Assembly: GCF_032854445.1 (NCBI RefSeq)
Contig: NC_088300.1
Coordinates: 78,717,084-78,781,083 of the forward strand
Reading direction: 5' to 3'
From: Liolophura sinensis
Lineage: Eukaryota > Mollusca > Polyplacophora > Chitonida > Chitonidae
DNA length: 64,000 bases
The position numbers and the translations under genes are program-made. Shown one piece after another: positions 3,749 through 52,395 of this stretch. Positions within the stretch are counted from its first letter, which is position 1. Each line of letters opens with the position of its first letter. The notes below the pieces were generated by a model. It was given only the letters and a program-made list of their open reading frames with translations, ran no database searches and was not told the DNA's origin.

Positions 3749-5221
3749 CAGTAGTCTGGTATGGACACCTGCCTTGGTAGCCTGGTAATCAGACAATTGG
3801 TGGCTTGGTATGGACACCTCAGCATTGTAGTCACACTTACAGTTGGTATCCTTTCATGGACACCTCAGCATTGGAGTGGCACTTACCCTTGGTAACCTTT
3901 ACTGAACACCTCAGCATTGGAGTCACACATTGGAGTGACACTTGCCCTTGGTATCCTTTAATAGACACCTCGGCATTGGAGTCACACTTACCCTTGGTAG
4001 CCTTTAATGGACACCTCAGCATTGGAGTCACACTTACCGTTTGTATCCTTTCATGGACACCTCGGCATTGGAGTCACACTTACCCTCGATAGCCTTTAAT
4101 GAACACCACAGCACTAGAGTCACACTTACCTTTGGTATCCTTTAATACACACCTTAGCACTGGAGTCCCACTTGCCCTTGGTATCCTTTCATGGGCTCCT
4201 CAGCATTGGAGTCACACTTACCCTTGATAGCCTTTAATAGACACCTCAGCATTGGAGTCCCACTTGCCCTTGGTATCCTTTCATGGGCTCCTCAGCACTG
4301 GAGTCACACTTACCCTTTGTATCCTTGAATGGACACCTCAGCATTGGAGTCACACTTACCCTTGGTAGCCTTTAATGGACACCTCAGCATTGGAGTCACA
4401 CTTACCTTTGGTAGCCTTTAATGGGCATCTCAGCATTGGAGTCACACTTACCGTTGGTAACCTTTACTGGACACCTCAGCATTGGAGTCACACTTACCCT
4501 TGGTATCCTTTAATGGACACCTCAGCACTGGAGTCACACTTACACCTTTAATGGATACCTCAGCATTGGAGGCACACACCCTTGGTATCCATTACTTGGC
4601 ACCTTAGCACTGGAGTCACACTTACCGTTTGTATCCTTTAATGGACACCTCGGCATTGGAGTCACACTTACCCTTGGTATCCTTTAATGAACACCTGAGC
4701 ATTGGAGTCACACTTACCCTTGGTATCCTTTAATTGACACCTCAGCACTGGAGTCACACACCCTTGGTATCCTTTATTGGACACCTCAGCATTGGAGTCA
4801 CACTTACCCTTGGTAGCTTTTAATGGACACCTCAGCACTGGAGTCACACTTACCCGTGGTATCCTTTAATGGACACCTCAGCATTTGAGTCACACTTGCC
4901 CTTCGTATCCTTTAATGGACACCTCAGCACTGGAGTCACACTTACCCGTGGTATCCTTTAATGGACACCTCAGCATTTGAGTCACACTTGCCCTTCGTAT
5001 CCTTTAATTGACACCTCAGCATTGGAGTCACACTTACCCTTGGTAGCCTTTAATGGACACCTCAGCACTGGAGTCACACTTACCCGTGGTATCCTTTAAT
5101 GGACACCTCAGCATTTGAGTCACACTTGCCCTTGGTATCCTTTAATTGACACCTCAGCATTGGAGTCACACTTACCCTTGGTAGCCTTTAATGGACACCT
5201 CAGCACTGGAGTCACACTTAC
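3749..5221 (-). repeat. 46-bp minisatellite made of an exon end plus splice donor
   Basis: About 31 units of 46 bp, preceded at 3749-3830 by a few degenerate 27-bp-type units. Read on the minus strand, each unit is a copy of the last ~34 bases of the PAN-gene exon that ends at 5222, followed by its donor GTAAGTGTG and the bases ACTCCA, which match bases already present in the exon. Most units keep GGGTAAGTGTG (seen on plus as CACACTTACCC). The array occupies the start of the intron downstream of that exon. Compared with the 27-bp unit, the 46-bp unit is identical in layout except for a 19-bp segment. Confidence 0.9.
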
Positions 5222-6614
5222 CCGTGGTATCCTTTAATGGACACCTCGGCATTGGAGTTAGACATCAGATCCGTGAAGGAGGAATTCTGTAGCCTATTAT
5301 GAGAGAACCAGTCCTCGTAATTGCTGTTCTCTCCATCAAACCATAACCATACTACTGCGGCCCCGTCCTTCCACAGTGTCAGTCGAACCTGTAAATATAC
5401 CATTTCACGGTAGTATTTTATAGATGTAAACTATTCTACATTACATTTAATCTATTAATTGTCTTTTTTTCATTTACAAACTCCACTCAACAGTGAAAAT
5501 ATTTGTTTGTTCCGTGGTGCAGTTCCAATAAGATATTTATCTCGGCGATGTTTTATTTCTATTCAAATTTTTGTACATAAAAAGTTTTTCATAAAATACA
5601 TCCCCATAAAGATGCTATGGTACATCAAAAGTGTATCTACACGTTACCACATAAATTAGTGTCATTTAATACCAGCTTTATTATAAATGCAATAGCAAAA
5701 TGTGCAATGTGGTACGGTCATGCAGTCTACCTGTTTTATTTTGATATTTGACCAGTATTTAACCAATTCGTGTTTGAAGGTTGAGTTGATCTTGTGGTAC
5801 ATGTCCAGTACTGTGACGTCACATCCGGACACGTAGGTATTGTCCACCCAGGGATCGTACACCTTCAGGCCAGTACCTGCCGAGACGCGGAACACCACCA
5901 ACTCAAATACATCCGCTGAAACAAAGAAAACATCGAAAAATCTAACAATTAAAGCCATCAGTGCAAGCCAGTACAGTGAATACGCTTGTCGAGAGTATAC
6001 ATTTTACTCACAAAGCCTACTGAGGATTTGAGCAATTCTGTGAAGTGAATATTTTCAGCTCAACAGCTGAATTGTGCCTTTGAGGTAATAAACCAGGTAA
6101 TCCGCTTCCCGCGGTCTTAAGTCAGGCAGTTTGTTTGATGCCCGACGACGCGCGGTGGTTTCTCCTATAGACTCATTACGTTTCGTCCTACCTATAAACA
6201 TGTACGCCGTCTCATTTTTATTTTTTACGTCTCATTTATTTTACGTACAGCTTAAGTACCAATGAAATGAAAAAAGAATAAATACGACTTACTTTGAGGT
6301 TTAAGGATGATGTCCATGGGTTGCGATGCTACCCATGGGTCACCGCATATGGATAGTCGCTGGAATGTTACGCATGCAGAACTGGTCGTAATGTACTGTA
6401 CCCCTACGCAATCTGGATACGTCCCGCAACTTGCTACACAATGAAGTTTACTGCGGGCAGTAAAATTACTTATAGTCTCCAATGGTAGCTGATTCGTGTA
6501 ATTCACATGGCTGAACAATATGGAATTAACCATGTCCAAAGTTGACCATACGAGGAAACCACAGATACTCACTGAAGGTGACCACATGTTGCTATGAAAG
6601 ATCCGCACCAGCAA
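5222..6614 (-). CDS. PAN/Apple-domain protein with lectin-like C-terminal domain (partial)
   Basis: Three minus-strand exons join in frame: 6614-6293, 5915-5731 and 5388-5222. All borders are GT-AG (donors GTAAGT, GTAGAC and GTAAGT; acceptors TTTCAG and TTACAG) and the phases fit (1, 0, 2). Exon 1 carries a PAN/Apple-type module with the cysteine pattern around SKLHCVASCGTYPDCVGVQY. Exons 2 and 3 carry a domain with GLKVYDPWVDNTY, VLDMYHKINSTF and WFSHNRLQNSSFTDL. I recall this from many secreted mollusc proteins but cannot name it. The protein is probably secreted, but the N-terminus is uncertain: the ATG at 6614 and one nine codons later (6587) are both possible, and a further 5' exon is not excluded. 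The C-terminal exons are not found, so they lie beyond the repeat-filled intron or outside the window. No function is assigned. Confidence 0.7.
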
Positions 6615-6786
6615 CTAGTCCGCGGGGAGCAGTTATTCTCCAAATCGGTCGCAAACGTGCTCACTGGCAACTAACCATGATATCCGATGAATTCCATTAT
6701 CCCATTAAAGACAAGCATTGGTTATTGGTAATCAATCAGTAACATGACCGACAACTCTAAAGGTTAAATCACCTTTCGCTGCCTAC

Positions 6787-6794
6787 TTTATATA
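6787..6794 (-). promoter_or_regulatory. Possible TATA box for the PAN-domain gene
   Basis: The minus strand reads CTTATATAAAGTAGG here, about 175 bases upstream of the candidate start at 6614. The position and match are compatible with a core promoter. No initiator or transcript evidence is available. Confidence 0.3.
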
Positions 6795-6955
6795 AGTGGC
6801 TGGTTTCTATTTTCGCAAGAATCTATATAATGACCTTTCTGTGTATTGTGAATGCGATTGATCCAAGGACAAGACGATGTCTCAAATGTCTCCTGACAAT
6901 GTAGAAAATAATGGAAATTTACTAATGTTTAGTTTACCAACAGAAATCATTATTA

Positions 6956-7365
6956 TACAAGTTAGTCCATACACCTCAATAGCCAAATCCAGTATCCACC
7001 TCAATAGCCAAATGCAACATCCACCTCAATATCCAAATCCAGCATCCACCTCAATAGCCAAATCCAGCATCCACCTCAATAGCCAAATCCAGCATCCATC
7101 TCAATAGTCAAATCCAGCCTCCATCTCAATAGCCAAATCCAGCATCCATCTCAATAGTCAAATCCAGCCTCCATCTCAATAGCCAAATCCAGCATCCATC
7201 TCAATAGTCAAATCCAGCCTCCATCTCAATAGCCAAATGCAACATCCACCTCAATAGCCAAATCCAGCATCCACCTCAATAACCAAATCCAGCATCCATC
7301 TCAATAGTCAAATCCAGCCTCCATCTCAATAGCCAAATCCAGCATCCATCTCAATATATAATGTT
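6956..7365. repeat. 25-bp minisatellite
   Basis: About 16 units of CTCAATAGCCAAATCCAGCATCCAT type, with alternating AGCC/AGTC and AGCAT/AGCCT variants that make a 50-bp second-order unit over the middle of the array. The period is not a multiple of three and no coding role is suggested. Confidence 0.93.
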
Positions 7366-7747
7366 TGCCTAGTCATATTGAAGCAAAGGCGTATCAATAT
7401 AAACGCAAATTAACTAAAACAATTCAAAGACCTTGCCATGGAAAATGATGATGCTCTTCCAAAAACATTCCTATTGCTCAGATGCGGACAAACCTGTTAA
7501 GAAAATGCGGAGCATCCAAAATGACGGCTAGTAATTATATGGGTACAGGTGAATATGATTCAACATCCAATGGTATCACTTCAAGGAGAATCATTTGTAC
7601 ATCAGTACCAAGACAATATTGCAGAAAACAAATTTATAGCCGTATATTTTGTGTGTGTCGATTTCCCGTACAAAAGACAAATCGTCATAGTTTGAAAGAA
7701 GTATTATTTAATCCTTGTTTATTGTGTTCGACAGTGTGTACATAACA
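7366..7747. other. No recognisable gene
   Basis: Unique sequence between two minisatellites. A plus-strand open frame of 87 codons at 7482-7745 matches no family I know and has no flanking splice or promoter signals that would support it. Confidence 0.4.
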
Positions 7748-8537
7748 TATCGGATACATCTGCATTCTTACCGTTTGGTATATAACATAAACGATACATC
7801 TGATTACCGTTTGGTATATGATATAACAGTTACACCTGATTGCCGTTTGGTATATAACATAACGGATAGATTTGATAACCGTTTCTTATATAAGATAACG
7901 GATACATCTGATTACTGTTTGATATATAACATAACGGATATATCTGATTTCCATTTGGTATATACCATAACGAAGACACCTGATTACCGTTTGTGTATAT
8001 AACATAACGGATACATCTGATTACCGTTTGGTAAAACATAACGGATACATCTGATTACCGTTTGGTATATAACATAACGGATGCTCCTGATTACCATTTC
8101 GTATATATCACAACAGATACACCTGATTACCATTTGCTATATAAAGTAACGGATACACCTGATTATCATCTGGTTTATAAAATAACAGAAACACCTGATT
8201 ATCATTTGGTATATAAAATAACGCGTACACCTGATTACCGTTTGGTATATAACATAACGGATACATCTGATTACTGTTTGATATATAACATAACGGATAC
8301 ATCTGATTACCATTTGGTATATAAAATAACGGATACACCTGATTATCGTTTAGTATGTAACATAACGGATGCACCTGATTATCATTTGGTATATAAAATA
8401 ACGGATACACCTGATTACCATTTGGTATATAGCATAACAGATATACCTGATTACCGTTTGTGTATATAACATAACGGATACATCAGATTACCGTTTGGAA
8501 TATAACATAACCTATGCATCTGATTACCGTTTGGTAT
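7748..8537. repeat. 36-bp minisatellite, open on both strands
   Basis: About 22 units of 36 bp with the core AACGGATACATCTGATTACC followed by GTTTGGTATATAACAT. Because 36 is twelve codons, long open frames appear on plus (YRLVYNITDTSD) and minus (YPLCYIPNGNQM). Small indels near 7990-8035 and 8465 break the frame at equivalent points (GTTTGTGTATATAA), suggesting a second-order duplication of part of the array. I treat the frames as artefacts. Confidence 0.93.
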
Positions 8538-8745
8538 ATTTATTTATTTGATTGGTGTTTTATGCCCCACTCAATAATATTTCACTTATACGACTGCGGC
8601 CAGCATTATTGTGGGAGGAAACCGGGCAGAGTCCGGGGGAAACCCACGACCATTCGCAGCTTGCGGGCTGACCTTCCAACATACGACCGCATTGGTGAGA
8701 GACCCCTGGGTCATTACGCTGCGCTAGCGCGCTAACCAACCACGT
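8538..8745 (-). mobile_element. tRNA-derived SINE, family 1 copy
   Basis: On the minus strand it runs from a tRNA-like head (around TTAGCGCGCTAGCGCAGCGT) through a body with GGTCGTGGGTTTCCCCCGG to a tail ending AAACACCAATCAAATAAATA. About 60 bp of the usual body between head and centre is missing compared with the copy at 41275-41545. The conserved centre and tail resemble SINEs reported from molluscs. Confidence 0.85.
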
Positions 8746-9530: not shown

Positions 9531-11248
9531 CCGCTGTGACATACAGTGGCATACAGTGACATATAGTGACATACAGTGGCATACAGGGAAATACAGTGAT
9601 ATACAGTGGCATACAGTGAAATACAGTGGCATACAGTGACATACAGTGATATACAGTGACATACAGTAAGATACAGTGGCATAGAATGACCTACAGTGAC
9701 ATACAGTGGCATACAGTGACATACAGTGGCATAGAATGACCTACAGTGACATATAGTGTAGTGACATACAATGGCGTACAGTGGCATACAGTGACATACA
9801 GTGGCATACAGTGACATACAGTGGCATACAGTGAAATACAGTGACATATAGTGTAGTGACATACAATGGCATACAGTGGCATACAGTGACATACAGTGGC
9901 ATACAGTGGCATACAATGAAATACAGTGGCATACAGTGATATACAGTGACATACAGTGGCATACAGTGGCATACAGTGACATACAGTGACATAGAATGAC
10001 CTACAGTGACATATAGTGTAGTGACATACAATGGCATACAGTGGCATACAGTGACATACAGTGACATACAGTTGCACAGAATGACCTACAGTGACATATA
10101 GTGACATACAATGGTATACAGTGGCATACAGTGACATACAGTGGCATACAGTGGCATACAATGGCATACAGTGACATACAGTGACATAGAATGACCTACA
10201 GTGACATATAGTGTAGTGACATACAATGGCATACAGTGGCATACAGTGACATACAGTGACATACAGTTGCACAGAATGACCTACAGTGACATATAGTGAC
10301 ATACAATGGCATACAGTGGCATAGAATGACATACAGTGACATACAGTTGCATACAGTGGCATGCAATGACATACAGTGACATACAGTGGCATACAGTGAA
10401 ATACAGTGGCATAGAATGACCTACAATGACATATAGTGTAGTGACATACAATGGCATACAGTGACATACAGTGGCATAGAATGACCTACAGTGACATATA
10501 GTGTAGTGACATACAGTGGCATACAGTGGCGTACAGTGACATACAGTGGCATACAATGAAATCCAGTGGCATACAGTGATATACAGTGACATACAGTGGC
10601 ATACAGTGGCATACAGTGACATACAGTGGCATAGAATGAAATACAGTGTCATACAGTGATATACAGTGACATACAGTGGCATACAGTGGCATAGAATGAC
10701 CTACAGTGACATGTAGTGACATACAATGGTATATAGTGGCATAGAATGACCTACAGTGACATATAGTGTAGTGACATACAATGGCATACAGTGGCATACA
10801 GTGACATACAGTGACATACAGTTGCACAGAATGACCTACAGTGACATATGGTGACATACAATGGCATACAGTGGCATAGAATGACATACAGTGACATACA
10901 GTGGCATACAGTGGCATACAGTGACATACAGTGGCATACAGCGGCATGCAATGACATACAGTGACATACAGTGGCATACAGTGAAATACAGTGGCACAGA
11001 ATGACCTACAATGACATATAGTGTAGTGACATACAATGGCATACAGTGACATACAGTGACATAGAATGACCTACAGTGACATATAGTGTAGTGGCATACA
11101 GTGGCATACAGTGACATACAGTGGCATAGAATGACCTACAGTGACATATAGTGACATACAGTGACATACAGTGGCATAGAATGACCTACAGTGACATATA
11201 GTGACATACAGTGACATACAGTGGCATACAGTGACATACAGTGGCATC
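9531..11248. repeat. 10-bp satellite-like array, 1.7 kb
   Basis: About 170 units of a 10-mer alternating GTGACATACA and GTGGCATACA, with interspersed variants (ATAGAATGAC, CTACAGTGAC, ATATAGTGTA). The variants recur in irregular larger blocks of roughly 200-260 bp (for example at 9731, 9992, 10188, 10412 and 10742). Since 10 is not a multiple of three, all three minus frames give the same decapeptide (MSLYATVCHC type), which explains several long overlapping open frames of up to 258 codons. None is likely to be a gene. Confidence 0.97.
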
Positions 11249-12179: not shown

Positions 12180-12362
12180 TCCGACTATATAACGGAATAC
12201 TGGACTGAAGGGGTATGGGATACGGAAGTCTGGAGCCATCATGAAAACCATGGCCCTAGAACGAACAACGCCCTTGAAGGATGGCACCAAATTTATATAA
12301 ACCTCCTGCATGAAAACCCTCTGTGTTTATCTGATTTAATCCAGATAATCTTTCTATTGTGA
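12180..12362 (+). pseudogene. MULE-type transposase fragment (C-terminal part)
   Basis: In frame this stretch reads EYWTEGVWDTEVWSHHENHG, then GPRTNNALEGWHQIY and LLHENPLCLSDLIQ. I recognise this pattern (trailing W, GPRTNN.LEGWH, then a helix with HPN.) from the end of MULE-like transposases in invertebrate genomes. Only about 58 codons remain and the upstream catalytic region is absent, replaced by the 73-bp array. It is a dead fragment. Confidence 0.6.
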
Positions 12363-16508: not shown

Positions 16509-19500
16509 ATGGGCAAAGTCATGTGTGGCTGCATGATGTTGTTTTTCTGTGTCCAGATTAGCACGGTCAGCTGGACTTTGGCACAGGCTACTACGGCTCT
16601 ACCGGACCCCTCTCGGCTCGGACTCCCCCCCGTACTCACTACTACCTCGTATAAGATCAACAGTTCCAAACCTCTTGTAGAGACCGCCGTGGAGGTGGAA
16701 GATTTGGCATGCGGAAAAAGTCACCTGTGTAATGGCTCATTAGGCAGGTATGACAATGGACGCTGCTTCGATTGTGGCAGATTTAGGTGTAAGTGTGACG
16801 AAGAGTGTCACATATATGGAGACTGCTGTGTAGATATGGCTATTGGCCAGGCCCCGGAATCGCGGGAACACCACCCACCTCATGTAGTATGTCAAAGAAG
16901 ATACCCCAAGTATAACAATGATGAGGCCGCTAAGTATATATTCATGATTAGCAGTTGTCCACCAGATAGCTTGGCGGACATAGAGACGGTATCCAAGTGT
17001 GAAAAGGCTGACGTGTATGATTACGAGCAAGCCACGCCAGTCACAGATTTAGGAACAGGCTTGGTCTACAGAAACTCTTTCTGTGCACAGTGTTTTGGTG
17101 TACAACGGTACAAAGTGTGGACGTACAACATCAAGTGCCAAGTTGGGTCTTCAGCCGAAGGAGCCCGTAGCAAGACGGAACTATGGGAACTTGTACTGAA
17201 TGACACCCAATGTACTGTGACTAATTCTCCACCTAGCGTGACACCTGGGAAACTAAGGGACTGTATTCTGGAAACCAAAAGACAGTGTAATGAGACTGGA
17301 CTGTGGGAGAAATACAACAAGATCACTGAAGATCTCTGCAGATCGTATTATAATCCTGTGGAGTACTACGATGACAAAAACAGGTATAGAAATGTGTTTT
17401 GTGCCATGTGCAATGGTGCAGAAGTTGATCGAAAAAAGCAGTGTGTTTACATTCCACACAGTCGTATCAGACCTAGGCCACGCACCCACTTCACCCAGCC
17501 CCTCAGTGTTCTCATAGACTTTAACGCAGAGTCTGTGGCCGATGATGCCACGTCATACAGCACAGAGAGCCGCTGTCCGACTGGTCAGATTTTCAACCCT
17601 TTGACGGTAAGTGTTGAGCAGCATATGGCAAGATGCTTTTGCCGTTGTGGCAAACAAACAAACAAACAAACAATTCTCAGTCCAAGAATTTTTCACTTAT
17701 GTAATGGGGTTCAGTTTTATGGGTGGAGGAAACTGAAATACCTGGTTTGAACCACCAACCTTTGGTAAGTTACTGATGATCTTGCCCACGTGAATGTCAT
17801 CTTGATGGAAGACAAATAGTCTTCAAGGAATTTTTCTGCGTACATCATATTCAGTTTTTCCTCCCAAAATAGCAAGCGCACCCTCTCGTTTATAAAGTAG
17901 GTGCACAACCTCAATTAACCGTGATTTAGATTTGGTTAGTTTACACAAGCTGAACGAAGCGGTTTGCTTGCGCTGTGTGGATCATGCGCAGATGACACTG
18001 TTATAATGTTGATAGTTAGGCGTAGGTATAGGTAAAGCTAATCTGCGTGTAAGGGCCTTAGAGGCCGAGGGGGTTAGCACGACTTTTTGAGGGTACACGC
18101 AGACCTATTTCATGCCAAAATATTACAGATAAATGTTAAATATACGTGAATATATACCTGTGATAACAATAGTGTTGTCATATCCTGACTTTATGTACCG
18201 TTACTATGCACTCGTTGCCCCTTGTCTCTAGATACAAAAAAAATACGAGTGAGGAGGGGTCTGCATGACATTCTACTGCTACCCCCTATTCATCCTGACG
18301 TTAAGTCTTTACAACAAATAATTTGCCAACATCAGCACGCGGTATTAGCATGTTGTGTTCTAAAACATAGTCACCTGTATTCCAAGCCTCTCTTTTTAAC
18401 CTTCCGGAAATAAAATTTCCGGAAAGGGAGTCTTATATATACTGACTTATATAAACTTATATATCTCACCCACACCTTTCATTGGCTGTTCGTAGTTCAT
18501 CGTAGTTGCGTTTTAGTGGCATATCGCCGTGGCCTTAGGCAACAGATTTAAATTCTGCTGACATTTACGCGACTTAACTGCGTAAACATTCTGGGGAAGT
18601 TGTACATCACTTTCTTTGCCTTTGTCCTTCTACAGCTTTCACGAAGTGGCGGTAAATCATGCATTCATTTTTATTTTCCGGTTTAGATAGGAGTCCGATT
18701 ATGTACTACTCTAGCTCAAAAGCAAAATTGTATTGGAGCCTGAAGTGTACCTGACGAACCAAGGTATTTTACTGAGGCCACCATAATGAATAACACGCAA
18801 ACATTTATATTTGTAGCTTATGTCATTTTATACTTACGTCAATAGAAAAACATAAAATCACATGAGTATACTTGTCTTTCCGGTATTATCCCAGTTTGTC
18901 AGATGTAAGCATGAACCTCATTTTCCAATCAATTTCTTCCACAATTATTTATTCTCCTGTGCAAGACATTTTTGTTACTAGATATTTGTACTAGATATTT
19001 AACATTTCACTTATTGTTTTTTGTTCTTATTGCTAGGCGTCCTGTATCGCTCTATCGTGTTCCCAGCGGAGGCTTCTCAACGGGGAGGCGTGTGAGCCAC
19101 TGTACCAGAGCATCCAGGGTCTTGGATACAGCTTCTCCTTGGCGGTCACACCCTTGGCACCTGTATTGGCCAACGCTACTGAAGCACTATACATTGTCTA
19201 CCAGAAGAGGTTGAACTCTGCTTTAAACAAATTTCAGCCATTAAGCTTTACAACAATACTGTTTGACGCTTATTCAAAGAGCCCGGTGTCAAATACCGTG
19301 CCACGTCTACTCAGTGTCGTGAAGGTCCAGGGATATGTTATATCTAACGCGGGCGCCGACATCTACACAATGGAGCAGGCATTGAGAGATTTGGACACAA
19401 TGGCGGTCAGTGCGATTATAAACAATGTGGAAGTCCCGTTTCAAACTCGATTCATGAGCTGTCCAGAATATGACCCGATTATGTTAGAAGGTAACCTATC

Positions 19501-20707
19501 TCCAGGAACGCACACCGAGTTCATTTCCTCGCCCCGATTCCAGAATTGTCGTGACGACTCTTGTATCCGAGGTGTTGACTACATGCCGGTAAATGGTGTC
19601 CTCGATTGCCCTCACATTTTAATAGACCTGCCCCAGTCGAACATCACTTTGGACTCCAGTAACAGTTCTCTTGTTGTTTTCAATCAAACCATTCCCATAG
19701 ACAACTCAAGCCACCACCTTTGTGGTAACATCTTGAAACTTTGTGCCAGTGTTGTTTATAGTATTCAGGAAATTTACAGTGCCGGTTCCCAGAACAATAC
19801 TTCTCAAGAGGGTAGTACAAGGACAGAGGAGAGCTTAGCCATGGTCGTCGTCTCAGTCGTCTGCATCGCCCTGTCCTTGATCTGCCTCTGTATCACATTC
19901 ATCATATATTGTCTCATACCACAACTTCGTAGCTTGCCGGGCAAAAACACCATGGCCTTGATATTTCATTTATTTTGTGCTCAATTAATTTTTCAGGTAG
20001 GCATCCAGCAAGTACAAAACAGAACGGTTTGTCGCGCGATGGGAGTCCTCATCCATTACTTCTGGTTAACTGCCTTTGGCTGGATGGCCATTAGCGCTTA
20101 CCACATGTGTGCTGTGTTTTCCAACATGGCTGCCAGTAGATTTAATGACAGATCTGCAGAAAGGAAAACGTTGGCCAAATATTTTATCCTGTGTAATGTA
20201 TTTGCCCTCGTGTTCGTGATAAGCTGTATTGTGTACCACGTGGCCGCGTCCGGTGGTCAGGATATAGGTTACGGTGAGCAAATTTGCTTTCTGAACAAAC
20301 CCTTGGACATAGGGATCTTCTTTGCCCTACCTGTAGGGCTTGTTCTCACCTTCAATGTGATCTGCTTTATTCGAACCGTTGTTTCCATCCGGAGAGTACC
20401 GGACATGAAGAATGCCAAGAACAAGCCAAACAGAAACCATGTACACGTGTATTTCCGCCTGTCTATACTTCTCGGTTTTACCTGGGTGTTTGGCTTTGTC
20501 GCCGCTGTGGTCAGGACCAATGTATGGTGGTATGTCTATATCATACTGAACGGACTTCAAGGTGTGTTTATATTTGTAGCGTATTGTCTCAACAAGAGGA
20601 CTATCAGACAGCTCCGAGCCAGATTTAGCGGAACAGGCCATATTAAGTATTCGCGACCCACTAAGTCCAGCTCATCTGACAGAACCACCCATTCCACAAC
20701 ATTATAG
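16509..20707 (+). CDS. Receptor gene 1: somatomedin-B plus family-B-like seven-helix receptor
   Basis: Two exons, 16509-17606 and 19037-20707, join in phase 0 (donor ACG|GTAAGT, acceptor TTGCTAG) to give 922 aa. Order: signal peptide (about residues 1-25), a somatomedin-B-like module near 60-115 (CKCDEECHIYGDCCVD), a long cysteine-rich ectodomain with many N-glycosylation sites, seven membrane helices at about 630-880, and a short Ser/Thr-rich tail. The helix region has PGKNTMALIFHLFCAQL and RAMGVLIHYFW, typical of family-B receptors of the adhesion/Methuselah type. I see no GPS autoproteolysis motif (no tryptophan-cysteine pattern before helix 1). It should act at the plasma membrane as a G-protein-coupled receptor with unknown ligand. 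The second gene at 25706 has the same architecture and the same intron position. Confidence 0.9.
17607..19036 (+). other. Intron of receptor gene 1
   Basis: 1430 bp, beginning GTAAGT and ending TTCTTATTGCTAG. It contains no tandem array or recognisable mobile element. A short (CAAA)n tract lies near 17655. Confidence 0.85.
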
Positions 20708-28700: not shown

Positions 28701-30457
28701 GGCTTTATGTGCGCTAAACTCTAACGCTGGTGCACATAGTTAAAGGGGAAATATCTCACCATTTAATAAATGGTAACACTTTGTTTTAGGAAAGTTGCCG
28801 AAAGGTGCAGTGTCCTTACGGACGAGTCTGGTCTGGTGGGAGATGCGAGCTGATTTTGGACTCTGTGGCGGGCGTGGGTTATTCTGCTTCTCTAGCAATA
28901 AAGTTCACAGAGGAGCTAACATCGGCTGAATGGAACGACCTTGTCGAGGATTTTGTTAATGGGGATTTGCGACAAAATCTGCAGCAGTTCTCTCCTTTCA
29001 TGTTTACAATGGTGTCGCGGTCATTATATGTTACACCACCCAGACTGGAGGGCATTTTTATTACCAGTGCACAAACAAGTGGGGCCAGAATAGACTTTAG
29101 GTTTGTCTCAATTTCATCAGGATACATCCAACAGTTGGAGGATGCTCTGAAAGGCGTCCACTCATTAGAGTTGACAAACTACACTGTTGGTGAGAAACGA
29201 GGCACATTATCATCGTTCCCTTTACCCTGTGCCTCCAGGATCTCGGATGTTCTACCCGGCATTCCAGGAGATACAGGGTTGTTTCGTGACCCGCCGTTTC
29301 CGGCCTGCGAATTTGGAAGTTGCGACTTCAGCTCTCTTACTTACGAACCCGTTCTTCACATTCTGAACTGTCCACATCTGGAGTTTAATCTTACGGATCA
29401 CAATATAAAATTGGATTTGAAAAAAGCAAGTATGGAAATTGACAACAATACAATAGATTTGCAGGAATCGGATTACTGGGCGTGTGGAGACACCATTAAA
29501 TTTTGTTCGCGTGGTCTTTCCCAGATTGCAACACAGATGGTGAAAAATCGCGCAACCAAGGAGAAGACCTCAGTCGTCAGTGTGTCACTGGCCTTGACCA
29601 TTGTCTCTGTCGTGTGTATCGCTCTGTCTTTACTCTGTCTCCTTCTGACATTTCTCGTGTATTGTCTCTTACCTCAGCTAAGGACTTTGCCAGGTAAAAA
29701 CACCATGGTACTTGTTGCTTATCTCTTCTGCGCTCAGCTATTTTTCCAGGTAGGCATAAACCTTACCTACAGCAAGAACCTTTGTCGTGCTATGGGTGTT
29801 CTCATCCATTACTTCTGGATAGTCACCTTCATGATTATGGGAACGTGTGCCTTCCACATGTACACGGTATTCACTAATATGTCAGCTAAACCATTCCATA
29901 ATACACTTCGTGAAACGAAGAAAGTGATACGGTATATCATTATCTCCAACGTCTTGGCGATGCTTGTCGTAGGGGTGTGTATCGCTTACCACGCTGGGAG
30001 CACAGGCGGGGAAGACATCGGCTATGGCGGCAAAACATGCTTTCTGAAGGGTCCACTCGACATTGGAATTTTCTTTGCGGGGCCATTGGGCATCGTTCTC
30101 GTTTTCAACACATTCTGTTTCATTCGAGTTGTGCTCTCCATTCGGAACGCCCCCAATATGAAGTCTTCAAAGAACCAGACGAACAGGAACCACGTTACAG
30201 TGTACTTACGGTTGTCTATATTGCTGGGCTTTACATGGATCTTCGGACTCGTGGCGGCATCTTTACAAGTGGAAGTTTTATGGTATATTTTCGTAATACT
30301 TAATGGACTGCAAGGAGTTTTCATTTTTATCGCTTACTGTCTTAACAAAAGAATTCTCGACATGCTGAAAACTGTTTGTTGTGGGAAGACGTCAGACAAA
30401 TATAACAGCACACCAGTCAATAGCCCAGTGGCAAGTACGGAAACCTCAACATTGTAA
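25706..30457 (+). CDS. Receptor gene 2: somatomedin-B plus family-B-like seven-helix receptor
   Basis: Two exons, 25706-26764 and 28790-30457, join in phase 0 (donor TCT|GTAAGT, acceptor TTGTTTTAG) to give 908 aa. It is a clear paralogue of the gene at 16509: signal peptide (about 1-21), somatomedin-B-like module (CHCDDVCTLYGDCCVD), cysteine-rich ectodomain with the same spaced motifs (FMVTSCPQDSLADQL, ITYRNSYCASCHG, IFCSLCNG, PLSVIIDF), then seven helices beginning near SLALTIVSVVCIALSLLCLL and including PGKNTMVLVAYLFCAQL. No GPS motif is visible. The second exon opens with ESCRKVQCPYGRVW where the first gene has ASCIALSCSQRRLL, so the intron position is conserved. A 130-bp stretch of exon 1 is identical to the inverted pseudogene at 36688-39262. 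Confidence 0.9.
26765..28789 (+). other. Intron of receptor gene 2
   Basis: 2025 bp, GT-AG. Its first 880 bp show nothing recognisable. The remainder is dominated by the 69-bp array listed separately. The array does not resemble the exon end, unlike the CHMP3 and PAN-gene arrays. Confidence 0.85.
27645..28325. repeat. ~69-bp minisatellite in the intron of receptor gene 2
   Basis: About 9-10 diverged units containing GTAGCCCGTATGAATTGGTC, ATGACGATGTGACT and CTGACTTGTATTAGTCT. Spacing is 68-69 bp with indels towards the right end. Confidence 0.88.
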
Positions 30458-41261: not shown

Positions 41262-41558
41262 CACCAATGGATCTATTTATTTATTTATTTATTTGATTGG
41301 TGTTTTACGCCGTACTCAAGAATATTTCACTTATACGACGGCGGCCAGCATTATGGTGGGTGGAAACCGGGCACAGCCCGGGGGAAACCCACGACCATCC
41401 GCAGGTTGCTGGCAGACCTTCCCACTTACGGCCGGAGAGGAAGCCAGCATGAGCTGGACTTGAACTCACAGCGACCGCATTGGTGAGAGGCTCCTGGGTC
41501 ATTACGCTGCGCTAGCGCGCTAACCGACTGAGCCACGGAGGCCCCCACCAATGGATCT
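41262..41558 (-). mobile_element. Full-length family-1 SINE with target-site duplication
   Basis: The body at 41275-41545 is flanked by the 13-bp direct repeat CACCAATGGATCT (41262-41274 and 41546-41558). On minus: a tRNA-like head GGCCTCCGTGGCTCAGTCGG with TTAGCGCGCTAGCGC, a B-box-like GAGTTCAAGTCCAGC, a conserved centre (GGTCGTGGGTTTCCCCCGGG) and a tail ATTCTTGAGTACGGCG ending in (AAAT)n. The clean duplication and the intact sequence suggest a recent insertion. Confidence 0.93.
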
Positions 41559-42168
41559 AAGAATCCATTATATCTCTACTGTGAACATTGGTTTACTTTC
41601 GACACACCGGGTTCTTCCGGCCATAAAACCACCGCCTCACAGAAATTACAAATCATTAAATACATCGTGAAACACTAATAAAAAAAGGCTCCAAAAATAA
41701 TATTCAAATATTGACAAACTTTTGTTTGTATACCTAGTATTATATTTATATATGTTTATTTGAGTGGTTTTCCACAAGATTATTTCATTTAATAAAAACT
41801 AAATGGTGACATTATAGACTGGACTGATAAACCATTCAGGTAGCTGAGAAGCCTTCTGAGATCTGAGAAGCCTTCTGAGATCAAGCCACACCCGGTCCGG
41901 CGGCAGCTGAATTCGCATCTCAATGCGATCTCATTGTAAAACCCAACAAAGCGCATGATAAAGGTAATCGAATATAGACCCTTCATGCGTGATTTATGTT
42001 TTGACTCTACACAAGGATGTCAAAAGGGAGCAGAGTAAAGAGGGATCGATATACCCGACATTTGAGCACTGCAGTATACATGTAGGCCTACACTCCTCTA
42101 TTGCAAGGGAAATCAAAATTAAGAAAAAAAAGCACAAGAAACAGTGGAAACCTTCTATATTTCTTTCC

Positions 42169-42264: not shown

Positions 42265-42266
<2 letters not shown>

Positions 42267-44267: not shown

Positions 44268-47200
44268 ATGGGACTGTTCGGGAAATCGCATCAAAAGACC
44301 CCCAAAGAAATGGTACTGGAATTCTTTGTGTTAAACCAGGACTTTATTTTGCGTTTGTTTAGTGTTCCTACAATAACCTTTTCTCTCTTATTGTTTACAA
44401 AGGCTTGAAGCTGACCAACAACAACAGCACGTAACATGACTAACTGTAACAACCCTGTCCAAGAAATTGGAATATTTTAAATGCGCTAAAAAAAAAAAAA
44501 AAAAAAGAAAGAAAGAAAGAAGAAAAAAAAGTATTCAGCATCACATTGGGATTTCGACAGTTATAAAGTAAGGGTTACAGCTTGATCACGTGGTGGACTG
44601 TTAAAAGAAATGACCTAAGAGAGTTCTGATATCTGATGAACTCCTCTTTCTTGTAATCCCTGTCCACAGTACATGTACTACTTGGTAGATAGTTTTGTGT
44701 ACCGTTTAAATATGTTGGCTTGTTCTGCACATTGTTCTGTGGTGGATTTGACTGTGTCCTGGTGGACAGGATAGGGATATTTCGTAATTATTCATTCAGT
44801 ACTTGATGGAAATCTTTTATGTATTGTCATTATTGTGTTTCTGAACACTGAATGTTTGATTTAATAGTTTAACGTCTTATTCATAATTTTTTCACTTATA
44901 GCAGTAGATATATTTTTTTTTTTGCTGCAGGGGGGCTCTGTGGCTCAGTTGGTTAGCGCGCTAATGCAGCGTAATGAACCAGGAACCTCTCACCAATGCT
45001 GTTGCTGAAAGCTCAAGTGCTGACTTCCTCTCCGGCCATAACTGGGAAAGTCTGTCAGCAACCTGGGAATGGTCGTGGGTTTCCTCCCACCATAACGCTG
45101 GCTGCCACCATATAAGTGAAATATTCTTGAGTAAGGCGTAAAACACCTATGAAATAAAGTAAATAAATAAATATTGTTGCAGGAAACTGGAGTACTGGGG
45201 ATAAACTGGAAAATGAGAGGTCCATGAAGTGTAAAAATGGGAGAATCCCCGACTCCAAGGATTAAACCTGCACCTTCTGGCCATTCCGGTGCTGAGTCTT
45301 TTCAGGCCAGAAATAAAAATGGCCAATGTATTTCCAGTCTGGCGTTAAGCCATGATAATTCATTCAGGAATAAAATAAATGTCAGAATAAGTTCTGCATG
45401 AAGAACAAACTACATTTATTTTGTCTTTTTTTGCAGGTTCAGGAATGGACGTCAAAAATTAGGAGAGAAGGAAATCAGCTAGAGCGTCAAGTAAGAGGTA
45501 TGTCTGGGTTACATTTAAACCTCCAGTGCTTCACAAGTCAAGTATGAGACCTGTTTGTTACATTTAAACCTTCAGGGGGCAGTTTTTCAAATGTGTATTG
45601 AAGTTAAGCCAGGCTTAAATCTAAATGCCAGTCTTATCCTTATACAAAGCAAATGACACTTTAATCTAAAGTTAATACCGGACTTAAGTCCTAATACATG
45701 TGTGAACAACTGGGCCCAGAGCCTCAGAAGTATGAGGTACTGGGTTACATTTAGACCTCCACAATGTGTCCTCATTAGTCAAGTATAAGGTGCTGGGTTA
45801 CATTTAAACCTCCACAATCTGCCCAGATTAGTCAAGTATGAGGTGCTCGGTTACATTTAAACCTCCACAGCCTGCCTTCATAAGTCAAGTATAAGGTGCT
45901 GGGTTACATTTAAACCTCCACAGCCTGCCCTCATTAATCAAGTATAAGGTGCTGGATTACATTTAAACCTCCACAATCTGCCCAGATTAGTCAAGTATGA
46001 GGTGCTGGGTTAAATTTTAAACCTCCACAGCCTGCCCTCATAAGTCAAGTATAAGGTGCTGGGTTACATTTAAACCTCCACAGCCTGCCCTCATTAATCA
46101 AGTATAAGGTGCTGGGTTACATTTAAACCTCCACAGCCTGCCCTCCTAAGTCAAGTATGGGGTGCTGGGTTACATTTAAACCTCCACAGCCTGCCCTCAT
46201 AAGTCAAGTATAAGGTGCTGGGTTACATTTAAACTTCCACAGCCTGCCCTCATAAGTCAAGTATAAGGTGCTGGGTTACATTTAAACCTCCACAGCCTGC
46301 CCTCCTAAGTCAAGTATAAGGTGCTGGGTTACATTTAAACCTCCACAGTCTGTCCTCATAAGTCAAGTATGGGGTGCTGGGTTACATTTAACTTCCACAG
46401 TCTGCCCTCATTAGTCAAGTATGAGGTGCTGGGTTGCATTTAAACCTCCACAGCCTGCCCTCATTTGTCAAGTATGAGGTGCTGGGTTGCATTTGAACCT
46501 CCACTGCCTGCCCTCATTAGTTAAGTATGAGGTGCTGGGTTACATTTAAATCTCCACTGCCTGCCCTCATTTGTCAAGTATGAGGTGCTGGGTTACATTT
46601 AAACCTGTTAAAGTTTTTTAACAGCAGGGAAGGGAAGTTACGGTTTAAACATATACAAAGTGGGAGCTTATTTGTCTTTAGTTTGATCAATCTTTGCTAT
46701 GCCCGTAAAGTGAAAGAAAAGTAGACACCAACATGTGCTGATTTCTAATGAATGTCACTCTTATACACACTATCCCATTGGCTGTGTCTCTCCTCTGGTC
46801 CAAAGAGTGAGCTTCTAACACACTGTGAAGTGTGTACAACAACACAATGGCCGTTTAACAGCTACGGCAATGTTTGCGGTTTCTGACCTGCTGAGGAGGA
46901 CGATTAAAACTGAAAACAATGCAAATCTTACCGTGTTGCTTGATAAAGAATGAGTGACTGGCATTGATAATGGTGAATTCATATGTTTTGCATTAAACTG
47001 CTCAAAAGGTGACAAGTCACTTTGCGAGGTGTTAAAAAGTACACATCAATGATTTGAAGGTAGGTGCGAACCACTTCTTAAGTAGTCATAATCCATCCCA
47101 TTGTTTTTAACCTCTGATCCAGATCACAAGGATTAGCGACACCGCAGGAAACAAAAGAGGATTAAAGCCGCCCATGATGATACCTGTTTGACGTGCTTGA

Positions 47201-50200
47201 AAAATTTCGGCCATATTGTATCATAGAAGATTTTAAGATTTGTTTTTCAGTATTCTCTTAAATACACGAAAATTAATCCCCACAAACATATTTTTTGGAG
47301 AAAATCTGCAGAAATAAATTCCAGTGAATAGTAAGTACTTTACAGTATATGTAATGACATCAAAGTATACATGTATGTGATAATAAGATGTGATTCTTTT
47401 TTGTTGTTTTACATGTGTATAGCTATTCAGCGTGAAGAGGAAAAAGTCAAACGATCATTAAAAGATGCAGCAAAGAAAGGTGAAAAGGAATCTTGCAGAG
47501 TGTTGGCAAAAGAAATTGTAAACTCTAGAAGAGCTGTAAACAAACTGTATGCTGCTAAGGCTCAACTCAATTCCGTCCAGATGAGCATGAAGAACCAGCT
47601 TGGTGAGTCATGCGCAACTAACCTGTGACTGTTTTTTTATCTTCTGTTTTTGACAGCTGCATAATCACATTTCACTTGTTTGTGTCATTCACCTAACTCT
47701 TAACTGTGTTATGATTTTTTGTATATAAAAACAGAGTTTATCAAACAAATTACAAATCTCCTTATTAATCCCCCTTAATCAGGCATGGCAACCTTCTCAT
47801 TTACATAATAAAAACTACAGAGGTCATCAAAACTGACTTTATAGTCCAGGTGCTTATCATATGAAAGCATCGAGGAAATGTTTACCTTGAGTACCAAAAG
47901 ATTTAGCTCTGTCTAATTAAAATAATGTTTGAATATTGCGATCATCCAGATACAACAATAAAACAAGAAAGAACAACTTACAACAATGACCCATGCTTTC
48001 ATGAAGACCCATAATTACCTAAAACTGTATTTGTGTGAAAATTAGACACATATCCTTTAATGTTTTGTTTTCAGCTACATTGAGAATAGCTGGAGCATTG
48101 GAGAAAAGCACAGCAGTAATGAACAGCATGCAGCAGCTAATAAAAGTGCCTGAGATCCAAGCTACCATGAGGGATATGTCCAAGGAAATGATGAAGGTCT
48201 GTGGTATGCTTTTTAGGAATTCATCATAGTTGGTCACATGTACATCTAACATTTCAGACCGCTTTAGTGACTTTATGGTTAAAGTGTCTACCTCAAAGTC
48301 AAGACATGCTGGCTTCCTCTCCGGCCGTACGTGGGAAGGTCTGCCAGCAACCTTCGGATGGTCATGGGTTTCCCCCGGGAAATATTCTTGAGTACGGCGT
48401 AAAACACCAATTAAACAAATAAATCAATCAATCAAAGTCAAGAGATCTGGGATCAGAGAATTTGAAAATGATACTTGTTCTGCCTCGCTGTGTGTTCAGC
48501 ACTGATATATTAGAGCAAGGAAACAGGACTGGTTGGCACCCCCTTGTCAGTATAATGTTATGGTGTGGGGCGTCATGTCTGGTGTCTTCTGCATGATACT
48601 TCAGTGGCAGCACACACTTAATGACTCCTCGTAATATGACTGAAAAAAATTGATAAGTATGTCATTAAACCCCAAGCATTCATTCATCTAACATTTGTAT
48701 GTAATGTAGTGAATGAATTTTAAAAAAAAAATAGGAAAAGAAATTCTGGAAACGAAGATGCCGTGATTTTGTATATTCTTGAACAGTGATAATCAGTCCA
48801 CATCAGTTAGTACGTAAGTAAAAGTCAGAAGTTGTGTTAATATACCAATGTTTATAATTTTAATAATCATGTATAATTTAAGACTTTTTCTGTGTTTTAG
48901 ATTTCTCTTCTAAAAAATTGAATGCAGACACAGATTTATGCAAATATTAGTTTTATGTTTGAACGTACAGGTGCGTACACACATGGAGATTGCAAAATTT
49001 GTACCACAGATAGTAGTATGATCTAATATAACAATGCTTCATCTGGACATTATATTTCCAGCGTGTAATTTTGCCATTTTTTTCTATAGCATGAAATATG
49101 CAATGTGTGGAAAGTGTTGAGGCTAGCACAATTTTACGACCATGCCTCTTGTTTTGGCTGGATACTCCTTGCATGTCCTTCAATAAGGCTGAAAACTGGT
49201 TCAGATTGAATGGCTTTCTACATTTCTAGTGAAAAAAAAAAGAGACATTGTTTGATCTTTACTTGTTGTTTAATGCTGTAATGTGCAAGTACAAACTGCA
49301 TTTCTTTGGTCCTAAGTTTTACCCACCAGTTTCTGTCCCTCTCTTTCAAATTTTTTTCCACATGGAACAATTATACGCAAGCTGCGGTGGTAAGTTGTCA
49401 AGTACAGTAACGATATTTGTTTCAAGAGGAAATACTTTTAAGGTCACAAAACATGGTTGATAAGAATATCAAAACAAAGCAAGTGCAGTGTCCAGCTGCA
49501 AATAACACGATGCATAAAAAGTTAAGCAGGAAAACAGTGTTTCTTTTCTTACTACAAAATGTCCAAACAAACCGCACACACATTTCTTTGGAGGGGTGTA
49601 AGTAGTTAAATGTAAACTGGATTTCAGCCATTCTGATTGATAGGAATGATCAAACAAATAGTTATCATAATAGCTCTAGAGTTCCAGAGTTGGTACAGGA
49701 AATGTTTGATATCTACATGGTGAATGCTGGTGCCTTTCTTAACAGGCTGGAATAATAGAGGAAATGTTAGAAGATACCATGGAGGGTCTGGAACCTGAGG
49801 ACTTGGAGGAGGAAGTTGATGCTGAGGTGGAGAAGGTGTTATTTGATCTCACTGCTGGTAAGTCATGCTGTTTGATCTCATTGCAGGTAAGTCATCCGTT
49901 TTGAGCGCACTGCTGGTAAGCCATGCTGTTTGATCTCACTGCTGGTAAGTCATCTGTTTTGATCTCACTGCTGGTAAATCATCCGTTTTGATCTCACTGC
50001 TGGTAAGTCATCCGTTTTGAGCGCACTGCTGGTAAGCCATGCTGTTTGATCTCACTGCTGTGAAGTCATCCGTTTTGAGCTCACTGCTGGTAAGTGATGC
50101 TGTTTGATCTCACTGCTGATAAGTCGTCCTTTTTGATCTCACTGCTGGTAAGTCATCCGTTTTGAGCGCACTGCTGATAAGCCATGCTGTTTGATCTCAC

Positions 50201-52013
50201 TGCTGGTAAGTCATCCGTTTTGAGCGCACTGCTGGTAAGCCATGCTGTTTGATCTCACTGCTGGTAAGTCATCCGTTTTGAGCGCACTGCTGGTAAGCCA
50301 TGCTGTTTGATCTCACTGCTGGTAAGTCATCCGTTTTGAGCGCACTGCTGGTAAGTCATGCTGTTTGATCTGATTGCTGGTAAGTCATCCGTTCTGAGCA
50401 CACTGCTGGTAAGTCATGCTGTTTGATCTCGCTGCTGGTAAGTCATCCGTTTTGATCTCACTGCTGGTAAGTCATGCTGTTTGATCTCGCTGCTGGTAAG
50501 TCATCCGTTTTGAGCTCACTGCTGGTAAGTCATGCTGTTTGATCTCACTGCTGGTAAGTCATCCGTTTTGAGCGCACTGCTGGTAAGCCATGCTGTTTGA
50601 TCTTACTGCTGGTAAGTCATCCTTTATGAGCTCACTGCTGGTAAGTGATGCTGTTTGATCTCGCTGCTGGTAAGTCATCCTTTATGAACTCACTGCTGGT
50701 AAGTGATGCTGTTTGATCTCACTGCTGGTAAATCACCCGTTTTGAGCTCACTGCTGGTAAGCCATGCTGTTTGATCTCACTGCTGGCAAGTCGTCCTTTT
50801 TGAGCTCACTGCTGGTAAGTCATCCTTTATGAGCTCACTGCTGGTAAGTCATCCTTTATGAGCTCACTGCTGGTAAGTGATGCTGTTTGATCTCACTGCT
50901 GGTAAATCACCCGTTTTGAGCTCACTGCTGGTAAGCCATGCTGTTTGATCTCACTGCTGGCAAGTCGTCCTTTTTGAGCTCACTGCTGGTAAGTCATGCT
51001 GTTTGATCTCACTGCTGGTAAATCACCCGTTTTGAGCTCACTGCTGGTAAGCCATGCTGTTTGATCTCACTGCTGGTAAATCATCCGTTTTGAGCTCACT
51101 GCTGGTAAGTCATGCTGTTTGATCTCGCTGCTGGTAAATCATCCGTTCTGAGCACACTGCTGGTAAGTGATGCTGTTTGATCTCACTGCTGGTAAGTCAT
51201 CCTTTATGAGCTCACTGCTGGTAAGTGATGCTGTTTGATCTCACTGCTGGTAAGTCGCCCTTTTTGAGCTGACTGCTGGTGAGTCATGCTGTTTGATCTC
51301 ATTGCTGGTAAGTCATCCATTTTGAGCTCACTGCTGGTAAGTTTTCCTTTATGAGCTCACTCTTGGTAAGTCATGCTTTATGAGCTCACTGGTGGTAAGT
51401 CATGCTGTTTGATCTCACTGGTGGTAAGTTATGCTGTTTGATATCACTGCTGGTAAGTCATGCTCTTTGATCTCACTGGTGGTAAGTCCTGCTGTTTGAG
51501 CTCGTTGTTGGTAAGTCATGCTGTATGAGCTCACTGCCGGTAAGTCATGAGTTTGATTTACAGAGGAAAATCATATCACATGTTGTACAGTGCACAACAT
51601 GTGATTAAACTTGTCAGTTGCTGGTTGGTTTTGTTTTCCATTTTCTATACTGTTAGGATTCTGTGTCCTGTGAGTGAAAGTTTATTCAGTATGATGTAAA
51701 ATCTCAAATAGATACGTGAAGAAATGATCAAGAAGTGCTTGTGTATTTCACACTCTGGAAATAAAGCTTCTTCTAAATGTCATGTCGTTGTCATATGACT
51801 GAAAAATTGTTAAGAACGTTAAACCCCAAGCACTCACTCACTCCAAATGTCGTCTTTTTTTTTTTTTTTCTCGCAGGTGAGCTGGGTAAAGCTCCAGCTG
51901 CTGTGGCAGACTCTTTGCCGACAGAAGAGCAAGGAGCTACAGCTGCTGTCGAGGATGAGGAAGAAGAGGATGTAGAGGAGATGAAGGCGCGTCTGGAGGC
52001 ACTGAGGAGTTAG
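44268..52013 (+). CDS. CHMP3: CHMP3 (VPS24), ESCRT-III subunit
   Basis: Six exons join perfectly in phase: 44268-44312, 45437-45497, 47423-47602, 48075-48196, 49746-49857 and 51877-52013. The product is 218 aa; human CHMP3 is 222. It starts MGLFGKSHQKTPKEM, continues VQEWTSKIRREGNQLERQVR and IQREEEKVKRSLKDAAKKGE, and ends in an acidic stretch plus VEEMKARLEALRS, the MIT-interacting C-terminal helix. The family acts at endosomes, virus budding sites and the cell-division midbody, where CHMP3 with CHMP2 caps and remodels ESCRT-III filaments. Donors of exon 1 (GTACTG) and exon 4 (GTCTGT) are weak; the others are standard. Introns 2 and 5 and the 3' end carry tandem arrays derived from the adjoining exon ends, so alternative donor use deserves attention. 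Confidence 0.97.
44934..45175 (+). mobile_element. Family-1 SINE in CHMP3 intron 1
   Basis: The head GGGGCTCTGTGGCTCAGTTGG, TTAGCGCGCTAATGCAGCGT, the centre GGTCGTGGGTTTCCTCCC and a tail with TATTCTTGAGTAAGGCGTAA ending in AAATAAATAAATA are all recognisable. It lies in the same orientation as the gene and is more diverged than the copy at 41275. Confidence 0.9.
45485..46610 (+). repeat. 53-bp minisatellite seeded by CHMP3 exon 2 end
   Basis: About 20 units of GTCAAGTATGAGGTGCTGGG, TTACATTTAAACCTCCACAG and CCTGCCCTCATAA. The first unit is the end of CHMP3 exon 2 itself: GCGTCAAGTAAGAG|GTATGTCTGGGTTACATTTAAACC. Later units have lost the good donor (GAGGTGCTG or AAGGTGCTG instead of GAG|GTATGT). 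The array is interrupted once by a MITE-like insertion. Confidence 0.93.
45575..45717. mobile_element. MITE-like insertion with inverted ends
   Basis: The left end GGGGGCAGTTTTTCAAATGT and the inverted right end GGGCCCAGTTGTTCACACAT match over about 50 bp with mismatches and gaps. The element splits a 53-bp repeat unit, so it arrived after the array began. No clear target duplication is visible. Confidence 0.65.
48304..48436 (+). mobile_element. 5'-truncated family-1 SINE nested in another SINE
   Basis: CATGCTGGCTTCCTCTCCGG to AAATAAATCAATCAAT, inserted in CHMP3 intron 4. It is flanked by CAAAGTCAAGA on both sides (about 48293-48303 and 48436-48446), a target-site duplication. The flanking sequence belongs to a second SINE. 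Confidence 0.85.
48447..48690 (+). mobile_element. SINE family 2 copy split by the nested insertion
   Basis: The head part (about 48262-48303, GGTTAAAGTGTCTACCTCAA) is separated by the nested SINE from the body and tail here (CATGTCTGGTGTCTTCTGCA, ATATGACTGAAAAAAATTG, CATTAAACCCCAAGCATTCATTC). It matches the copy at 24205-24470. Confidence 0.75.
49842..51560 (+). repeat. 29-bp minisatellite of CHMP3 exon 5 end plus splice donor
   Basis: About 58 units of 29 bp fill most of CHMP3 intron 5. Two types tend to alternate: GTAAGTCATGCTGTTTGATC plus TCACTGCTG, and GTAAGTCATCCGTTTTGAGC plus GCACTGCTG, giving a 58-bp second order. The first unit is the true exon 5 end TTTGATCTCACTGCTG|GTAAGTCATG. Most units keep CTGGTAAG, so each is a strong 5' splice-site match. 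A read-through from the true donor meets an in-frame TGA at 49902-49904. Confidence 0.97.
51776..51845 (+). mobile_element. SINE family 2 tail in CHMP3 intron 5
   Basis: TCATATGACTGAAAAATTGT, TAAGAACGTTAAACCCCAAG and CACTCACTCACTC, with AAATGTC on both sides as a short possible target duplication. It sits just before the pyrimidine tract of exon 6. Confidence 0.75.
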
Positions 52014-52395
52014 TCCTGTACCTCCAGCTCATGTGTTTAGAGACACTGAGGAGTTTATAGTCTTGTACCTCCAGTTCATTATACGTGTTGGGAGGCACTG
52101 AGGAGTCAGGTCATTTTACGTGCTTGGAGACACTGAGGAGTTTATATTCTTGTGCCTCCAGTTCATTACGTTTTTTAGGCACTGAGGGGTTAGTCCTGTA
52201 CCTCCAGCACATTATACGTGTTTAAGGCACTGAGGAGTTAGTCCTTTACCTACAGCACATTATATGTGTTTGGAGAGACTGAGGAGTTTATTGACCTGTA
52301 CCTCTGGCTCATTAGGCAACCATCATTAGAGGATGCTGATTTAGAGGGATTGAAGGCATGTCTGGAGGCTTTGAGGAGCTTATAGTGCTGTACTT
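51985..52395 (+). repeat. Tandem copies of the CHMP3 stop-codon region in the 3' UTR
   Basis: The end of the coding sequence, GGAGGCACTGAGGAGTTAG followed by TCCTGTACCTCCAGCTCAT, recurs as degenerate copies at about 52042, 52093, 52129, 52175, 52222 and 52274. The last copy (52325-52395) reaches further into the coding part (TTGAAGGCATGTCTGGAGGC, TTTGAGGAGC). Spacing is irregular, 36-55 bp. It shows the same exon-end-anchored pattern as the intronic arrays, here at a 3' terminal exon. Confidence 0.85.

Follow-up and report, generated by a model that had tools for sequence, protein, structure and literature searches.

Minisatellites built from exon ends and splice signals in a chiton resemble the mirage minisatellites of amphioxus

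Three minisatellite arrays in the genome of the chiton Liolophura sinensis, with units of 29, 53 and 46 bp, are tandem copies of the end of an exon together with its splice donor, as established by alignments and junction copies. All three run into the intron only, as a preliminary description of this DNA had stated. They lie in the window, i.e., the whole 64-kb stretch analyzed here (C6:78717084-78781083), which belongs to a genome searched as 609 Mb in 632 contigs. The seeding of arrays by exon ends was confirmed elsewhere in this genome: at eight of 119 exon places, an array that includes exonic bases spans the donor. Mirror-image arrays at the acceptor were found at two of the 119 places, so the phenomenon is neither confined to the window nor exclusive to donors, and the donor exclusivity claimed earlier was lost. 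From their sequences, we file the chiton arrays with the "mirage" minisatellites of amphioxus, now in a new lineage, and we think it probable that they arise by ordinary local tandem duplication, are tolerated and are then expanded. New here are the phylum, the array length and a first frequency (8/119 donors and 2/119 acceptors in four protein families).

The chiton assembly was first published as Liolophura japonica, and the species has since been corrected to L. sinensis (PMC12441733). A TRF scan of the window (period of at least 9, score of at least 60) gave 29 arrays after merging, which together occupy 12.6 of the 64 kb. A complete CHMP3 gene with six exons was located on the plus strand (Table 1). 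The C-terminal part encoded by exons 5 and 6 matched CHMP3 in the PDB (E 1.1e-18), and the six exons joined to one open frame encoding a full-length protein. No array-derived exon or segment was found in the joined protein of CHMP3, the one gene examined in this respect; the idea that the arrays represent intron gain in progress was therefore not supported. The intact joined frame is consistent with an mRNA made from the outermost splice site.

Table 1. Positions of the genes, arrays and census cases. Window coordinates are given for the upper part and contig positions for the census; a slash marks the exon-intron junction.
Feature	Position	Strand	Details
CHMP3 exon 1	44268..44312	+	tblastn with an approximate human CHMP3 query, E 0.003
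CHMP3 exon 2	45437..45497	+	donor AAGAG/GTATGT
CHMP3 exon 3	47423..47602	+	
CHMP3 exon 4	48075..48196	+	
CHMP3 exon 5	49746..49857	+	donor GCTG/GTAAGT; exon end TTTGATCTCACTGCTG/GTAAGT
CHMP3 exon 6 and stop codon	51877..52013	+	
53-bp donor array, CHMP3 intron 2	45486..46606	+	first unit with 12 exonic bases; main array 45728-46606 by TRF
29-bp donor array (58-bp paired unit, 29+29), CHMP3 intron 5	49842..51548	+	TRF, 29.4 copies of 58 bp
Array running into the 3' UTR, seeded by the end of the CHMP3 coding sequence with its stop codon	51969..52382	+	TRF, alignment
Exon of minus-strand gene	5222..5388	-	open frame VRLTLWKDGAAVVWLWFDGE...IKGYH; acceptor TTTACAG; donor CGG/GTAAGT
46-bp donor array	3797..5258	-	TRF, junction copies; 5222-5258 is the exon itself
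27-bp array, putative shortened relative of the 46-bp unit	2..267	-	TRF; alignment
27-bp array, unit as in 2-267	2030..2372	-	right of the presumed inserted element
Presumed inserted element between the 27-bp arrays	268..2029		genome search of 268-600; ORFs
Census donor array	C12:686729		66-bp unit
Census donor array	C12:684214		31-bp unit
Census donor array	C11:2675303		32-bp unit
Census donor array	C8:10565028		140-bp unit, 4.9 copies, 113 exonic bases
Census donor array	C1:26644459		31-bp unit
Census donor duplication, myosin	C3:10775981		104-bp unit, two copies, 72 exonic bases
Census donor array	C9:5672128		30-bp unit, 2.4 copies
Census donor array	C10:34945489		45-bp unit, 34 exonic bases
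Census acceptor array	C2:5378501		32 bp x 21.9, 9 exonic bases
Census acceptor array	C9:4628084		27 bp x 16.6, 7 exonic bases

One array follows exon 5 of CHMP3. Its first 16 bases are the last 16 bases of the exon, and each unit carries 16 exonic bases and the donor. The 24-bp junction between exon 5 and its donor occurs in 58 copies downstream when up to 8 mismatches are allowed, and the exon end scored against its array beyond 3000 of 3000 random 60-mers of the window. On an approximate donor matrix, 32 of the downstream donors equal or exceed the authentic donor in score.

The array after exon 2 shares 11 of its unit's 12 exonic bases with the exon end. A genome search using 301 bases from inside the array returned, as its weakest match, a sequence beginning at window position 45486, 12 bases into exon 2, and the first two units are separated from the main array by about 140 bp of unrelated sequence. 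Since the 12 exonic bases alone are weak (35 of 3000 random 60-mers were equally good), the case is made by the position and by the collinear alignment across the junction. No inner donor of this array reaches the score of the authentic donor.

The fourth array, which was said to copy the last coding bases of CHMP3 into the 3' UTR, was likewise borne out. The last 44 coding bases (51969-52012) align to 52338-52382 with some gaps and mismatches, again beyond 3000 of 3000 random 60-mers of the window. Shorter copies lie between, and the farthest copy has about 44 coding bases.

The 46-bp array belongs to an exon of a gene on the minus strand. The best Pfam (E 0.15) and PDB (E 2.2) matches of this exon were both meaningless, and the next exon of the gene was not found; a minus-strand ORF at 6255-6614 gave a weak hint of a PAN domain in Pfam (E 0.021). 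Of the 46 bases in the unit, 37 are exonic, 35 of them identical to the exon, and the 9 intronic ones include the donor GT. The exon end scored against the array beyond 3000 of 3000 random 60-mers, five inner donors match or surpass the authentic one on the approximate matrix, and degenerate copies can be followed by eye back to position 3749. The presence of exonic bases in the units of the three donor arrays, as described earlier, was confirmed, but their range is 12-37 (measured as 16, 12 and 37) and not 12-34.

Two further arrays with 27-bp units lie near the left end of the window. Their alignment with the 46-bp unit has 28 of 32 bases identical, and 0 of 3000 random sequences were as good. 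They look like shortened relatives of the 46-bp unit, and on this similarity the donor of the minus-strand gene seems to have seeded two unit types over several kilobases. Because the 27-bp arrays align to a donor unit, the supposed contrast with other arrays in the window, which were said to have no link to donors, is not clean. The leftmost array extends about 1.3 kb upstream of the window, and a genome search with its window part gave, among the matches listed, hits at its own locus only. Between the two 27-bp arrays, the sequence of about 268-600 is multi-copy, with at least 39 other places at 92-96% identity; this copy number applies to that part, and we infer that the whole interval between the arrays may be one inserted element. 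Its minus-strand ORFs, judged by eye, are presumably reverse-transcriptase-like (GIPMGTNCAPLLADL), and no support for a reverse transcriptase was obtained for them from Pfam.

A census of exon boundaries was carried out in four families, i.e., myosin head, kinesin, adaptin and SNF transporter (81+132+37+109=359 exon places located). Three adaptin rows, which were long single-frame matches, were left out, resulting in 356 places, and seven places longer than 460 bp were excluded from the second DNA set, one of the seven being already included. The sample consisted of the 119 places with at least 400 bases of flank on both sides (54 myosin, 30 kinesin, 23 SNF and 12 adaptin), for which a donor was assigned by score in 91 and an acceptor in 92; these places fall into about 51 gene clusters and so are partly dependent. 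Candidates from an automatic screen were each read, and borderline calls were made by judgement. Arrays that cross the boundary and include exonic bases occurred at 8 of 119 3' edges (donor; confidence interval 2.9-12.8%) and at 2 of 119 5' edges (acceptor; 0.2-5.9%). The eight donor cases have 8-113 exonic bases per unit, and six of them are myosins. The best match of the muscle myosin of this genome is PDB 3i5f, which we take to be squid myosin. Acceptor arrays were seen elsewhere in the genome, and the window yielded donor cases only. Two donor cases (C9:5672128 and C10:34945489) were placed by reading the sequence, the automatic donor choice having missed the true donor. The array at C11:2675303 is a donor case by its junction copies; TRF places its start 59 bases beyond the donor, and for this reason the array-start test described below treats it as intronic. 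An acceptor candidate at C8:39266847 was dropped, as its array stops short of the real acceptor, and candidates without clear exonic bases were left uncounted (C10:731383, C4:1247172 on both sides, C5:4648103, C5:10272882 on both sides, C1:4562919 and C1:4560998).

Eight of the 11 donor unit lengths (29, 46 and 53 bp in the window; 66, 31, 32, 140, 31, 104, 30 and 45 bp in the census) are not multiples of 3. Frame-shifting unit lengths are thus not avoided, as expected if the copies stay out of the mRNA. The GT is kept in 53/58, 24/30, 13/13, 18/18, 4/4 and 5/5 copies and, in one myosin array, in 8/16 (the exon 2 array is outside this count); copies in most measured arrays are therefore not purged of donors. 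The myosin array and the exon 2 array, whose inner donors stay below the authentic level, indicate that the copies are not uniformly maintained. Where inner donors are as strong as the real one, the first donor would have to win by position or exon context. The mean number of mismatches in the 24-bp junction, by successive thirds of the array, was 2.8, 2.3 and 2.6 for exon 5 and 2.2, 3.2 and 3.0 for the 46-bp array. Because the similarity does not fall steadily with distance, the direction of growth is not readable from it.

Mirage minisatellites of amphioxus are reported in Adh3 and in the globin genes BflGb6 and BflGb9, and the repeats of PGBD5 have been likened to them (PMC3087553, citing Canestro et al. 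2002). In the features compared here, the chiton arrays have the same structure. In both animals, tandem repeats span exon-intron boundaries (in the chiton, at three donors in the window and at 10 boundaries of the 119 census places). The units hold exonic bases together with a splice signal (12-37 bases in the window, with 11 of 12 identical in the exon 2 case). Both the 5' and the 3' boundaries of introns are affected (eight donors and two acceptors), and the units vary. The arrays are therefore not the new class that they had been taken for, and a model of intron gain from mirages is already in print for the amphioxus globins (PMC3087553). The chiton, however, is a mollusc and not a cephalochordate, and its arrays reach 58 junction copies, compared with the 3-6 units described for BflGb6 (PMC3087553). 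Normal splicing and somatic instability are reported for the amphioxus mirages, whereas the chiton arrays are known from one assembly and one haplotype. In the open-access titles and abstracts covered by our literature search (molluscs, chitons and the structure in general), no such structure was reported outside amphioxus. A curiosity of a few amphioxus genes is thus now found in a second phylum, with a first rough frequency.

In the model of Rogers, as cited in PMC3087553, introns would be gained when AGGT-containing sequence is duplicated in tandem. The chiton arrays resemble it in that a tandem duplication that includes a splice signal comes first. They differ in that an existing intron is lengthened, with no new intron or array-derived exon in CHMP3. 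The arrays also share the dynamics, mixed unit lengths and higher-order units (29+29 bp) of ordinary intronic minisatellites or VNTRs, but in the chiton, coding bases and the donor of the adjoining exon form part of the unit. Such arrays provide material from which introns can be lengthened and, in principle, gained.

These features can be accounted for by three steps. A chance local tandem duplication across an exon-intron boundary would come first. It would survive because splicing keeps the outermost authentic site (the first donor or the last acceptor), so that each extra copy is spliced out as intron, while duplications altering the coding exon would disappear. The intronic copies would then be expanded and homogenized by slippage, unequal crossing-over or gene conversion, the exonic copy meanwhile being fixed by selection on the protein. 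The one-sidedness of the arrays follows if a duplication survives only when the authentic outer site continues to be used. The series from two copies of 104 bp, through 4.9 copies of 140 bp, to arrays with tens of short units points to an initial duplication and later turnover of the array. Donor-specific machinery is not required, and there is room for a moderate local excess at donors.

A distinctly less probable explanation, which we nevertheless take seriously, is that donor ends are true hotspots at which tandem duplications are started repeatedly by pausing, by R-loops or by breaks, so that arrays form there more often than elsewhere. Support for it comes from the array starts, which are taken to follow where duplication began. 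Across 91 introns, seven arrays start in exonic sequence directly ahead of the donor, and 15 start within the intron's first 400 bases. Uniform seeding would place 1.3-2.4 starts in the exonic donor zone (p 0.001-0.024, depending on the assumed unit length), and the density of starts at donors is about 3-5 times that of the adjacent intron. The 15 intronic starts count one adaptin array twice (for two exons) and include two overlapping rows of one kinesin intron; dropping the duplicates would make the donor excess slightly higher. The starts are also concentrated in the range -40..+80, where 11 of 19 crowd the first 80 intron bases (p 0.005), although this range was picked post hoc. At acceptors, two starts were observed, compared with 1.6-2.1 expected. 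The expectation that arrays favor donors over both introns and acceptors was therefore borne out in part: donors show a higher density of starts than the intron does, but the excess of eight donors over two acceptors was not significant (Fisher p 0.10), and six of the eight come from the myosin family.

Measured by coverage, donors do not stand out. Junction 20-mers with at least two downstream copies were found at 5 of 91 donors, compared with 7-9 of 91 at 30-90 bases into the intron; the corresponding numbers for acceptors were 2 of 92 and, at upstream positions, 3-8 of 92. A genome-wide donor excess also failed to appear in a crude motif count, in which three tandem GGTAAGT gave 793+884 matches and the reversed control 1041+1369; this count tallies matches rather than arrays, and long arrays weigh heavily in it. 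The two measures thus disagree, the donor being special by array starts and not by coverage. Selection on the coding copy may prolong the time over which an array is recognizable, which would mimic a hotspot. The excess of starts suggests that more than passive survival may be at work; donors may be modestly preferred, though this is not established. That chiton splice donors are active starting points of tandem duplication, with several per cent of introns lengthened by their own exon end, is accordingly a tentative proposal. If it is true, every gene of this sort amounts to a natural experiment on a spliceosome that selects the first donor from among dozens of equal ones, and now and then a copy could be turned into a new exon or intron. 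Whether duplication is favored at exon ends, and how the spliceosome chooses among many equal donors, can be tested in one annotated genome.

It is very improbable that the arrays are kept for a function, e.g., as reserves of U1-binding donors that affect splicing or premature polyadenylation. The many donors of at least authentic score in the exon 5 array (32) and the 46-bp array (5) and the mostly retained GT would fit such a role, but the exon 2 array has no donor of authentic score, one myosin array has lost the GT in half of its copies (8/16 retained), and array starts inside the intron outnumber the boundary-spanning ones (15 vs 7). Insertion of a mobile or satellite family beside exon ends, with the exon likeness due to target-site choice or chance, was rejected: arrays abound in this genome (29 in the window), which also has multi-copy elements, but 301-base pieces of the three donor arrays each matched their own locus only in a whole-genome search that skips very common words, with no unit found at several unlinked loci, and the units carry coding bases of their own gene. 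Equally hard to credit is an artefact of assembly or haplotype, to which tandem arrays are prone, since the assembly is described as built from HiFi and Omni-C, blocks within the donor arrays are 77-95% identical and thus diverged rather than exact collapses, and the pattern recurs in other genes.

The rest of the window contains several other features. Long uninterrupted ORFs at 19037-20707 and 28790-30457 on the plus strand match the secretin-family 7TM domain (E 2e-22 and 3.5e-19) and, from their sequence, are perhaps a tandem pair of adhesion-type receptors. An ASB-like gene with ankyrin-repeat ORFs and a SOCS box lies at 58323-63627 on the minus strand, where a 99-bp array of 10.4 copies (61145-62177) sits between two ankyrin ORFs. 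A 10-bp repeat (GTGACATACA) with about 176 copies occupies 9536-11247 and has long open stretches on the minus strand. The sequences at about 41270-41560, 44930-45170 and 48300-48420 look by eye like copies of a SINE-like element, of a kind that molluscs commonly carry. Elsewhere in the assembly, mitochondrial COX1 was found in one copy on C632 and in seven copies on C99. The spacing of these seven is mostly about 15.5 kb, a pattern that a concatemer of the mitochondrial genome would give.
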